Source: Geobacter sp. FeAm09 (GTDB lineage: Bacteria; Desulfobacterota; Desulfuromonadia; Geobacterales; Pseudopelobacteraceae). Taken from it: 64,000 nt of DNA. Shown here piece after piece: positions 3,985 through 27,423 of this stretch. The stretch is taken from positions 2,970,001 through 3,034,000 of the forward strand of contig NZ_CP042466.1 in the NCBI RefSeq assembly GCF_008330225.1, written 5' to 3'. The translations under genes were made by a program, and so were the position numbers. The notes below the pieces were generated by a model. The model made no database searches and was not told the DNA's origin. It worked only from the letters and a program-made list of their open reading frames with translations. Positions within the stretch are counted from its first letter, which is position 1; each line of letters starts with the position of its first letter.

Positions 3985-4107
3985 AGGTTGTTCAAAAATG
4001 GTCAGATCGTCGCACCCGCTCGACAAGCCCCGAGGAGGCGTAGCAGGCCTACGCCGCACGAAAGGGCTTTCGAGGACGAAGGCCTGATGGCTGTTTTTCA
4101 ACAACCT
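3985..4107. repeat. R1 palindromic element, copy 2 (123 bp, ATP-grasp to alpha-E gap)
   Basis: It has the same ends (AGGTTGTTCAAAAAT and TTTTTCAACAACCT) and the same orientation as the copy at 206-326. An outer end-like word, AGGCTGTCGAAAAA, precedes it. The central palindrome is a variant, GGCGTAGCAGGCCTACGCC. It ends 23 bp before the alpha-E start codon. Confidence 0.9.
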
Positions 4108-22072: not shown

Positions 22073-22193
22073 AGGTTGTTGAAAAACAGCCATCTCGCCG
22101 CCGTCCTCGAACGCCCTTTCGTGCGGCGTAGCGCTGCTACGCCTCCTCAGGGCGTTCTGCGGGTGCGACGATCTGACTATTTTTGAACAACCT
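22073..22193. repeat. R1 palindromic element, copy 3 (121 bp)
   Basis: Reverse orientation relative to copies 1 and 2: it starts AGGTTGTTGAAAAA and ends TTTTTGAACAACCT. The central palindrome GGCGTAGCGCTGCTACGCC is at 22125-22143. It lies 7 bp after the transglycosylase stop and 42 bp before the chosen cobJ start. Confidence 0.92.
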
Positions 22194-22235
22194 AGCAGCC
22201 TGCTAATGCCCCACCCCAACCGAATAGGTGATTTC

Positions 22236-24731
22236 ATGCCCCCCCTGTATATTATCGGCACCGGCCCCGGAGACATCGTCCACCTGACCGATGCCGCCCG
22301 CCAGGCCCTGGCCGAAGCCACAACCATTATCGGTTACGACAGTTACCTGGAGCAGATCGCCCCCCTCCTTGCCGGGAAAGCCACGGTGGCAACCGGCATG
22401 ATGCGTGAGATCGAACGCTGCCGCGAGGCCATCGCCAGGGCGCGCGCCGGCGAGGCGGTCGCCCTGGTTTCCGGCGGCGACGCCGGCATCTACGGCATGG
22501 CCGGGCTGGTGCTGGAACTTTTGGAACACGAAGCCGAAAACGGCCAGCCCCAGCCCGATATCCGGGTCATACCGGGCATTTCGGCCATCCAGGCGGCGGC
22601 GTCCGTCCTGGGCGCACCGCTCATGCACGACTTCGCCGTCATTTCCCTTTCCGACCTGCTCACCCCCTGGGACCTGATCATGGCGCGCCTTACGGCGGCT
22701 GCCCAAGCCGATTTCGTCATCGTGATCTTCAACCCCCGCAGCGCCAAACGGGTCACCCAGATCGAGGAGGCCCGCCGCATCATCCTGGCCTCCCGGCCGG
22801 CCGGGACCCCGGCGGGCATCGTGCGCAACGCCTGCCGCCCGGACGAGCAGAGCACCGTCACCACCCTGGGGGGGCTGTTGGAGCACCGGATCGACATGTC
22901 CACCATCGTGGTCATCGGCAACAGCAAAAGCTTTGTGGACAGCCGGGGCCGCATGGTCACGCCCCGCGGCTATGCCGGCAAATACGGCATCGCCACCACT
23001 ACGGAGCCTGAAGCCGTGACACCGGAATGCCGCAGCGGCCGGAAGAGCCGGGGCCCGCACGCCGCCCATGCCGCAGCAGACCAGGCGCCATGCCGGCCCT
23101 CCGTCGGACGGCCGCCTATCTCCTTGCCGGCAAAGGCAGAGGCCTTCCGGTCGAACGGAGGCATGGAGGCGTCACGGCTTCAGACGGAACAGGATACGCC
23201 GCCGACGCCCCGGCCGGGCGCCGTCATGTTCTGCGGCACCGCGTCCGACGTGGGCAAATCGGTCGTCACGGCCGGCTTTTGCCGCCTGCTGGTCCGGCGC
23301 GGCATCAGCGTCGCCCCCTTCAAGTCCCAGAACATGTCCCTCAACTCCGCCGTCACCCCCGAGGGGGGCGAGATCGGCCGTGCCCAGGCCGTGCAGGCCC
23401 AGGCCTGCCGCATCGCCCCCCATACCGACATGAATCCGGTGCTCCTGAAGCCCAATTCCGACACCGGCAGCCAGATCATCGTCCAGGGGCGGCCGGTCGG
23501 CTCCATGAATGTGGCCCAGTACGATGCCTACAAGCCCCAGGCCTTTGCCCGGGTCACGGAGAGCTTCCAGCGCCTGAAAAGCGGATACGGCTTCATCGCC
23601 ATCGAAGGAGCCGGGAGCATTGCCGAGATCAACCTCAGGCACAACGACATCGCCAACCTCCGGGTTGCCGCCATGGCGCGCTGCCCGGTCATCCTGGTGG
23701 CCGATATCGACCGCGGCGGCGTCTTCGCCCAGATCGTCGGCACCATCGATCTGCTGGAGCCCCACGAGCGGAAGATGATCCGGGGGATCGTCATCAACCG
23801 GTTCCGCGGCGACGCCGCCATCCTGCGGCCCGGCCTCGACTTCATCACGGAGCGGACCGGCATCCCGGTCATCGGCGTCCTCCCCTGGCTCGCGGACCTG
23901 GATCTGCCGGCCGAGGACAGCATGGCGCTCAGCCGCCCGCCCCGCCCCGCCGACGGCGCAGCCGGTCCCAACGCCATCCGCATCGGAGTCGTCAGGCTGC
24001 CGCGCATCTCCAATTTCACCGATTTCGACGCCCTCGGCCGCGAACCGGACTGCGCCCTCACCTACCTGGAATCGCCCCAGCAGATGGCAGGGCTCGATGT
24101 CCTCGTCCTCCCGGGGAGCAAGACCACCATCCCCGACCTGGACTACCTGCAGGAGCGCGGCTTCTTCCCGGCGATCAAGGACTTCACGGGGCACATCGTC
24201 GGCATCTGCGGCGGCTACCAGATGCTTGGCCAGCGGGTGCTGGACCCCCACGGCGTGGAATCGGCGATCCGGGAGATGGCCGGGCTCGGCCTGCTCCCGG
24301 TGGAGACGGAACTGCTGCCGGAAAAGAGCACCCACCAGGCGGTGGCCCGCCTCGCTGCGGCCGGGCAGGCGCTCGCCCCCGGTTGCCGTGAGGAGATGGC
24401 CGGCTACGAGATCCACATGGGCATCACCACCCCGGTCGGCCCGGGGCGCCCCTTTGCCGGCATCTCCCGACGCGGGACCGCCCCGGTGGACGTCCAGGAC
24501 GGCGCCGTTTCGCCCGATGCCAGAATCTTCGGCACCTACCTCCACGGTATCTTCGACAACGCCCGCTTCCGGGAGGCCTACCTCAACCGCATCCGCGGCC
24601 CCAAAGGGCTCCCCCTGCGGCACGACGCCCACGAGCGGGATCACGGCGACCCCTTCGACCGGCTGGCCGACCATCTCGAACAGCACCTGGACATCCCCCT
24701 GCTGCTGGATATCTGCGGGCTGGCACGGTGA
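22236..24731 (+). CDS. cobJ-cobQ: Fused precorrin-3B C17-methyltransferase (CobJ) and cobyric acid synthase (CobQ)
   Basis: One 831-residue frame holds two corrinoid enzymes. Residues 1 to about 250 are CobJ/CbiH, which methylates C17 and contracts the ring: YIIGTGPGDIVHLTDAA, SGGDAGIYGMA, VIPGISAIQAAA. About 330-831 are CobQ/CbiP, the glutamine-dependent amidase that adds four amides: CGTASDVGKSVVTAGF P-loop, DIDRGGVFAQ, and a class I glutamine amidotransferase domain with nucleophile Cys in GICGGYQM and the YEIHMG motif. About 60 residues between them are encoded by a repeat element (23007-23184), so the fusion looks recent. The start at 22236 has AGGTGA; an upstream ATG (22206) is less likely. 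CobQ might also be made from the ATG at 23163. Confidence 0.92.
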   Translation: MPPLYIIGTGPGDIVHLTDAARQALAEATTIIGYDSYLEQIAPLLAGKATVATGMMREIERCREAIARARAGEAVALVSGGDAGIYGMAGLVLELLEHEAENGQPQPDIRVIPGISAIQAAASVLGAPLMHDFAVISLSDLLTPWDLIMARLTAAAQADFVIVIFNPRSAKRVTQIEEARRIILASRPAGTPAGIVRNACRPDEQSTVTTLGGLLEHRIDMSTIVVIGNSKSFVDSRGRMVTPRGYAGKYGIATTTEPEAVTPECRSGRKSRGPHAAHAAADQAPCRPSVGRPPISLPAKAEAFRSNGGMEASRLQTEQDTPPTPRPGAVMFCGTASDVGKSVVTAGFCRLLVRRGISVAPFKSQNMSLNSAVTPEGGEIGRAQAVQAQACRIAPHTDMNPVLLKPNSDTGSQIIVQGRPVGSMNVAQYDAYKPQAFARVTESFQRLKSGYGFIAIEGAGSIAEINLRHNDIANLRVAAMARCPVILVADIDRGGVFAQIVGTIDLLEPHERKMIRGIVINRFRGDAAILRPGLDFITERTGIPVIGVLPWLADLDLPAEDSMALSRPPRPADGAAGPNAIRIGVVRLPRISNFTDFDALGREPDCALTYLESPQQMAGLDVLVLPGSKTTIPDLDYLQERGFFPAIKDFTGHIVGICGGYQMLGQRVLDPHGVESAIREMAGLGLLPVETELLPEKSTHQAVARLAAAGQALAPGCREEMAGYEIHMGITTPVGPGRPFAGISRRGTAPVDVQDGAVSPDARIFGTYLHGIFDNARFREAYLNRIRGPKGLPLRHDAHERDHGDPFDRLADHLEQHLDIPLLLDICGLAR
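23007..23184. repeat. R2 inverted-repeat element inside the CobJ-CobQ linker
   Basis: CTGAAGCCGTGAC (23008-23020) is matched by GTCACGGCTTCAG (23171-23183). It shares position-matched blocks with the intergenic copy at 27249-27423: CCGGAAGAGCCGGGG begins 32 bp from the left end in both, and GGCAGAGGCCTTCCGG begins 48-49 bp from the right end in both. It is open in the cobJ-cobQ frame and codes for a low-complexity linker rich in Ala, Arg and Pro. Confidence 0.85.
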
Positions 24732-26775: not shown

Positions 26776-27195
26776 ATGGGAGAGACCATACGTTTCGGCA
26801 TATCCATCGACGACGGGCTGTTGGAGCGCTTTGACCGGCTGGTTACGGAGAAGGGGTACATCAACCGCTCCGAGGCCATCCGCGACCTGATCCGCGACGC
26901 CCTGGTGGAGCAGACCTGGGAGGAGGGCAACGAGGAAACGGTCGGCACGGTGACCCTGGTCTACGATCACCACGTCCACGACCTGGCCGACCGGCTGACC
27001 GCCATCCAGCACGACCACCACGACCGCATCGTCTCGACCCTGCACGTGCATCTGGACCACCACAACTGCCTCGAGGTGCTGATCGTCAAGGGCAAGGCGA
27101 GTCAGATCAAGGCCATAGCCGACTCCCTGATCGGCGTGAAGGGGGTCAAGCACGGCAAACTGGTGATGACGACCACGGGGCGTGAATTGGGCTAG
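26776..27195 (+). CDS. nikR: Nickel-responsive transcriptional regulator NikR
   Basis: The product has 139 residues: an N-terminal ribbon-helix-helix ([31 protein letters not shown]) and a C-terminal ACT-like metal-binding domain. The nickel ligands are present: His in HDHHDR, the pair in [10 protein letters not shown], and Cys in HHNCLEV. It represses nickel uptake genes when nickel is plentiful. AAGGGGGGAG precedes the ATG. Association with cobamide genes here, and hyp genes further along, fits a metal-cofactor theme; target promoters were not identified in the window. Confidence 0.95.
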
Positions 27196-27248: not shown

Positions 27249-27423
27249 CCTGAATCCGTGACGCCTCCCTGCCTTCGTGCCCGGAAGAGCCGGGGCCTGC
27301 CCGCCGCCATGTCGTGGCATCCCACCTGCGAGTCCCGTCCGCCGCCTGATGGTCGCAAACCCTGCAAGCGCAATGGCAGAGGCCTTCCGGACGGTAGAGG
27401 CAGGGAGGCGTCACGGATTCAGG
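27249..27423. repeat. R2 inverted-repeat element, intergenic copy (175 bp)
   Basis: The 26-bp terminal inverted repeats are perfect: CCTGAATCCGTGACGCC... at the left (27249-27274) and its exact complement at 27398-27423. Inside is a second pairing, CCGGAAG with CTTCCGG. It lies 53 bp after nikR and just before the terminator at 27434. Homologous in position and sequence to the copy inside cobJ-cobQ. Confidence 0.9.

Follow-up and report, generated by a model that had tools for sequence, protein, structure and literature searches.

Probable in-frame insertion of a MITE-like element into the linker of an already existing CobJ-CobQ fusion protein

How does a conserved biosynthetic enzyme come to carry, between its two domains, a stretch of DNA that recurs outside genes nearby? 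The window analysed here, 64,000 nucleotides from Geobacter sp. FeAm09 (genome of 4,099,068 bp, one contig), poses this question. Sequence comparison suggests that the genome belongs to Oryzomonas, a genus assigned to the Geobacteraceae (PMC7285026). The repeat may have made the fusion, or it may have entered a fusion that was already there. Our analysis favours the latter: with a probability of about 0.85, a MITE-like element was inserted in frame into the disordered linker of an already existing CobJ-CobQ fusion protein.

The element in the linker and its family

CobJ and CobQ lie within a single open frame (22206/22236-24731), as a preliminary description of the locus had stated, and both domains are full, CobJ scoring 303 bits with TIGR01466 (cut-off 246) and CobQ 627 bits with PRK00784 (cut-off 273). 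The start at 22236 seems likelier than that at 22206, given five same-genus matches, three of which contain one TGA while two start at residue 7. Downstream follow cbiB, cobD and then nikR, a nickel regulator gene (26776-27195) directly behind cobD, 3' of the cobalamin genes. On its upstream side, cobJ-cobQ is adjoined by a second dispersed element with inverted ends, 121 bp long (22073-22193; also 206-326, 3985-4107, minus strand). This 121-bp element gives at least 31 match rows over at least 118 of its 121 bases in its own genome (20 at 91% identity or more, window copy included), and it contains GGCGTAGCGCTGCTACGCC, the central palindrome of a 24-member G. metallireducens family (PMC2700814).

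Table 1. Features of the cobJ-cobQ locus and of the neighbouring element copy (window positions)
Feature	Position	Strand	Remarks
cobJ-cobQ fusion gene, precorrin-3B C17-methyltransferase / cobyric acid synthase, bifunctional	22236..24731	+	single frame in most relatives too
CobJ domain	22245..22976	+	residues 14-257 of the frame counted from 22206; TIGR01466
Interdomain linker	22977..23219	+	residues 258-338; predicted disordered; pLDDT <50 for residues 254-335
Left target-site duplication CGGAG	23002..23006	+	sequence; 5-bp duplication statistic
Dispersed inverted-repeat element, in-frame copy	23007..23184	+	59 codons + 1 nt
Left terminal inverted repeat, 13 bp	23008..23020	+	inverted-repeat pair I6
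ATG in frame, within the element's right end	23163..23165	+	sequence
Right terminal inverted repeat, 13 bp	23171..23183	+	inverted-repeat pair I6
Right target-site duplication CGGAA	23185..23189	+	sequence; 5-bp duplication statistic
CobQ domain	23220..24713	+	residues 339-836; PRK00784 / TIGR00313
Intergenic element copy, 3' of nikR	27249..27423	+	perfect 26-bp terminal inverted repeats

The 13-bp terminal inverted repeats reported for the in-gene copy are perfect, and the pairing extends to 24 nt at 83%. The blocks said to be shared by the two window copies do match in register (D1 78% over 60 nt, D3 and D5 92%), and the pair has an E value of 2.7e-18 in the 4.1-Mb genome. A search for further copies, which had been proposed as a check, returned 14 others for each window copy, each covering some three quarters of the query or more. 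The 17-nt end pattern occurs 67 times in the same genome with up to 3 mismatches, as against 5 times for the reversed control. The linker peptide is of simple composition, and a chance likeness in a GC-rich, low-complexity stretch might be thought of for that reason; the E value, the many copies, the excess of ends and the 5-bp duplication described below make such a coincidence scarcely credible. The neighbouring copy is an unlikely source of the in-gene one, since a closer relative lies elsewhere (81% identity for the copy at 3595665, 72% for that at 27249).

The element occurs in all six genomes of the genus. Matches at E <= 1e-5 were found in at least 15 of 57 genomes: these six, eight others of the family, in which the copies are mostly partial or fewer, and one of another family. 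After exclusion of sequence duplicates, of hits below 21 bits and of hits not spanning model positions 3-173, 71 full-length copies from the six genus genomes were listed, 70 of them distinct, with a mean length of 175 bp (range 162-180 bp). One listed copy (L236) is a second view of a copy at L215, and was left out of the trees but kept in the 71-copy frame counts; the 70 copies are partly orthologous between species, so that not all are independent. The ends are imperfect 17-bp repeats with the consensus CCTGAATCCGTGACGCC, and an autonomous partner would be expected to end in CCTGAATCCGTGACG. Among the 70 flank pairs, the 5 bp on either side agree at 63% of positions compared with 28 +/- 2% after permutation, and 17 exact 5-bp duplications were counted against 0.68 expected (maximum 5 in 2000 permutations). 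Flank agreement at lengths of 2-4 and 6 bp shows a much smaller excess, and at 7-9 bp next to none. Around the in-gene copy of the window, whose outer end pair is degraded, the duplication holds at four of five positions (CGGAG/CGGAA); in G002 it is exact (CGGAA/CGGAA; locus L043). Shared terminal inverted repeats, a constant 5-bp target duplication and short, dispersed copies with no room for a transposase are the characters of a MITE. The genus-wide copies, the inverted ends and the duplication together bear out the earlier view that the linker is built from a mobile-type repeat.

Copies of the element can also be folded. In 46 copies, 95.9% of the cells of the outer helix are paired, and covariation across the family (46 of 70 copies) comprises 12 pairs changed on both sides against 3.6 after shuffling, a number reached in 0 of 500 shuffles; since the paired changes exceed all shuffles, the copies have kept the hairpin. 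The predicted RNA fold has a z score of -5.0 for the in-gene copy and -8.4 for that at 27249..27423. When the genome of the window was scanned by the end pattern, allowing up to 3 mismatches, no longer element bounded by such a pair of ends was apparent. Rfam gave no family at gathering score for the window or for two loci, and a permissive search gave six hits, all below gathering.

Besides the five copies in CobJ-CobQ, eight lie in long open frames. On reading of the translations alone, seven of these were rejected as spurious or as lying 5' of the true start. The eighth (G001, C44 57034-57210; L165 / L292) is in frame in the signal-peptide region of a protein that its sequence suggests to be TPM-domain-like, and four other genomes of the genus with that gene have no element in the region. 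This gene of one draft genome is likely to represent a second in-frame insertion; the flanking duplication is TCTTACTG, unlike the usual 5 bp.

The fusion without the element

Of 57 genomes searched with the protein, 53 gave a match, and 48 loci were read; the five matching genomes outside this set contain only a CobQ type of 44-48% identity. CobJ and CobQ occupy one frame in 46 of the 48 loci, spread over four families of the order, and 5 of the 46 carry the element. The two loci that did not parse are G055, which meets a contig end, and G036, in which CobJ is lost except for the first residues before the linker. At the G036 locus (L268, C284 5000-7800), a CobJ-like start of ~12 residues, MSKLYVVGTGPG, is followed by a repeat-like linker and CobQ, and it looks as though the remainder of CobJ had been deleted. 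A second set of loci, in which other families of the class were included, showed one frame in 54 of 54, the class search having matched 126 genomes of which part was read, with the first 20 regions picked partly for long frames. In 17 further genomes of the family the linker measures 22-29 residues, and in the element-free G004 24, compared with 82-84 in the five carriers.

Separate CobQ genes exist among relatives. G014 and G025 have the other CobQ type (44-48% identity), with CobJ located elsewhere, and the class search showed CobQ in a 497-aa frame in G058 and G064. A CobQ type of 44-49% identity was also seen in G014, G025, G033, G072, G079-G081, G087, G089 and others; most of the open frames concerned measure ~857-1042 aa, and this type may be another fusion.

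These comparisons bear on the central proposal of the preliminary description, namely that cobJ and cobQ were separate genes until the element landed between them, which abolished the stop and so made a bifunctional protein. The position of the element, exactly between the domains and in frame, is what that course of events would leave. However, among the relatives read from the order and the class, most have the fused frame without the element, as does G004 within the genus. The comparison of the junction in relatives, suggested as a test, thus gave a fusion with a short, element-free linker and counts against an element-made fusion, which we regard as highly improbable.

An insertion into the existing fusion can be placed more closely. 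The element frame is open in five of the six genus genomes (G000, G001, G002, G003 and G005), and the element is absent from the linker of G004, a draft genome that is 83% complete. G004 groups with G001 as its sister in the joint tree (support 100%) as well as in the CobJ (98) and CobQ (100) trees. All five in-gene copies fall into a single clade with a local support of 0.90; that of G001 is 84-86% identical to the other in-gene copies, as against 84% to one copy elsewhere. The G001 linker has 279 nt and that of G004 99 nt, a difference of 180 bp, whereas exact excision of the G001 copy would remove 183.

The events may be pictured as follows. A small, non-autonomous inverted-repeat element of ~175 bp would have transposed into the linker with duplication of a 5-bp target, and as 175 + 5 = 180 bp, or 60 codons, the reading frame would have continued. 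The consensus end brings a TGA into two of the three phases, and the insertion would have occurred in the third. A single insertion, predating the divergence of the six genomes, would account for the five carriers, and G004 would then have lost the element by a net 180-bp deletion that kept the frame. We infer that the transposition was carried out by a transposase, that one gain and one loss took place and that catalysis was unaffected. Two gains, one in G001 and one in the ancestor of the other four carriers, tie with one gain and one loss by event count. The sequences make a single gain with a loss the most likely course, because site, phase and duplication agree among the carriers.

Tolerance of the added residues

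In the forward direction, 30 of 71 copies are open in frame 0, and in the reverse direction 27 of 71, compared with 3-8 of 71 for the other frames. In-gene copies are 175 or 178 bp long, one codon apart, while all copies fall into three length classes (31, 27 and 13 of 71). Over ten species pairs, dN/dS is 0.60-2.62 for the linker and 0.08-0.25 for the domains; linker dS is 0.12-0.26, lower than that of CobJ in 8 of the 10 pairs. An AlphaFold2 model built from 19 sequences (mean pLDDT 74.7, pTM 0.55) places residues 254-335 at pLDDT <50 between mostly confident domains. The open frame 0, the near-neutral dN/dS and the predicted disorder indicate a tolerated peptide, and the ~60 added residues are best seen as an unstructured, nearly neutral spacer, tolerated rather than useful.

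It may be asked whether the element has instead been retained in the gene for a role of its mRNA hairpin or its peptide, e.g., a translation pause between the domains or protection of the message. The strong fold of the in-gene copy and the covariation of the family agree with such a role, as do the low linker dS and a compensatory stem change that G000 and G003 share within the gene. However, covariation is weak in the five coding copies, where two stem pairs are changed on both sides (8 of 500 shuffles by cells, 78 of 500 by pairs), and hairpin symmetry might equally be maintained by transposition or template switching. The peptide, moreover, has a dN/dS near 1, G004 does without the element, and in the genomes read the element was seen in no linker outside the genus. 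The low linker dS and the two-sided stem changes leave some room for constraint at the nucleotide level, but retention for a function is, on balance, unlikely. A further role, additional synthesis of CobQ from the ATG at 23163, had been raised for this ATG, which lies within the element. The codon is indeed present and in frame, and it is shared by G000, G001, G002, G003 and G005. However, it is part of the element end: of 41 aligned copies located outside the gene, 26 have it, but that at 27249 does not; the ribosome-binding-like GGAGG lies just 1 nt 5' of it; and G004 and the element-free relatives lack the ATG together with the entire element. Initiation of a separate CobQ there is thus very unlikely from the sequence. 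The preferred reading therefore remains a tolerated insertion into an existing fusion.

Other linker repeats and comparison with known systems

Repeats of other kinds occur in CobJ-CobQ linkers, of which 100 from 102 loci were parsed (G036 and G055 were not). At p <= 0.01 (mononucleotide shuffles), 32 of the 100 linkers contain arrays of 7-bp units, compared with 0 of 375 equal-length CobJ windows; as several linkers come from one genus, these are not 32 events. Array periods of 4-6 and 8-11 bp were found in 0-4 linkers. Several array genomes are rich in one degenerate heptamer pattern (G042: 382 matches, 2 for the reversed control), but the tie of this pattern to the arrays is loose: it does not exceed the control in G034, G037 and G040, is rare in G049 and G050, and is common in G023 and G024 although their linkers have no array. 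Pieces of other linkers recur in their own genomes, with at least 39 match rows for G096, 6 for G067, 41 for G108, 41 for G123 and 83 for G141, counting self and both strands; the G141 query was joined from three pieces and holds more than one repeat type. For a palindrome in the G035 linker, at least 25 other matches were obtained; they are short, and most are weak, with E values of 0.007-0.1 apart from the best at 4.2e-6. G019, G021, G034 and G035 have congeners without the linker repeat, so that these look like separate gains. The linkers at L314, L315, L297, L298, L299 and L051, like the heptamer loci, contain unrelated dispersed repeats that are translated.

In other lineages, this permissive linker has taken in several repeat families that are unrelated to one another. 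A wider proposal would make it a recurrent landing pad across the class for repeats of the host's own genome (the MITE, heptamer arrays and at least four other palindromes), in which a hairpin or flexible spacer is mildly useful. We hold this to be doubtful; if true, co-translational folding or the balance of the two activities might gain. In either case the linker offers a natural experiment on selfish DNA that lengthens protein linkers, by tolerance alone or with selection as well. For annotation, linker peptides of this kind should be regarded as translated repeats and not as domains.

The nearest parallel by description is provided by the Rickettsia palindromic elements (RPE), small palindromic multicopy sequences that occur between genes and in frame in conserved genes (PMC10969869, PMC2229807, PMC3733652). 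RPE are 105-146 bp long, their target duplication is marked '?', and an RPE-bearing guanylate kinase is reported to be translated and active with a changed substrate affinity (PMC2229807). The present element agrees with RPE on the criterion of lying in frame inside a conserved protein gene with other copies outside genes, and its peptide is likewise tolerated; it differs in host lineage, length (~175 bp), the clear 5-bp duplication and its position between two domains of a fusion. It would thus work like an RPE, a comparison by description that makes no claim of membership. Bacterial MITEs, including Correia/NEMIS and ERIC, share terminal inverted repeats, target duplication, the absence of a transposase and in-frame fusions (PMC2229807). 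Most MITEs are A+T-rich with TA ends (PMC2229807), whereas the present element is G+C-rich, with CCTG...CAGG ends and a 5-bp duplication. For the Chunjie MITE of Geobacter uraniireducens, a related bacterium, a length of 178-235 bp is given, together with terminal inverted and direct repeats; it is described as disrupting an operon and as otherwise intergenic (PMC10969869), and it too is compared by description only.

Multicopy sequences inside genes were reported for Geobacter in 2009 and 2010 (PMC2700814, PMC2996986). They include a G. metallireducens heptanucleotide family (consensus GGACCGG) at 49 intergenic and intragenic places, and a G. bemidjiensis family inserted in protein-coding genes without frameshift (PMC2700814, PMC2996986). 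These families resemble the present case by description, with related hosts and intragenic repeats; no mention of the CobJ-CobQ linker was met in the text consulted or in a literature search, and that text does not name the present element (PMC2700814, PMC2996986). In-frame palindromic repeats and intragenic Geobacter repeats were therefore already known, and what is added here is the target duplication, a placed gain with a probable loss, the interdomain position and the recurrence. The locus is a clear example from nature, and from outside Rickettsia, of how a conserved biosynthetic enzyme incorporated a dispersed inverted-repeat element; a target duplication is present, a sister species lacks the element, and the selection regime can be measured.
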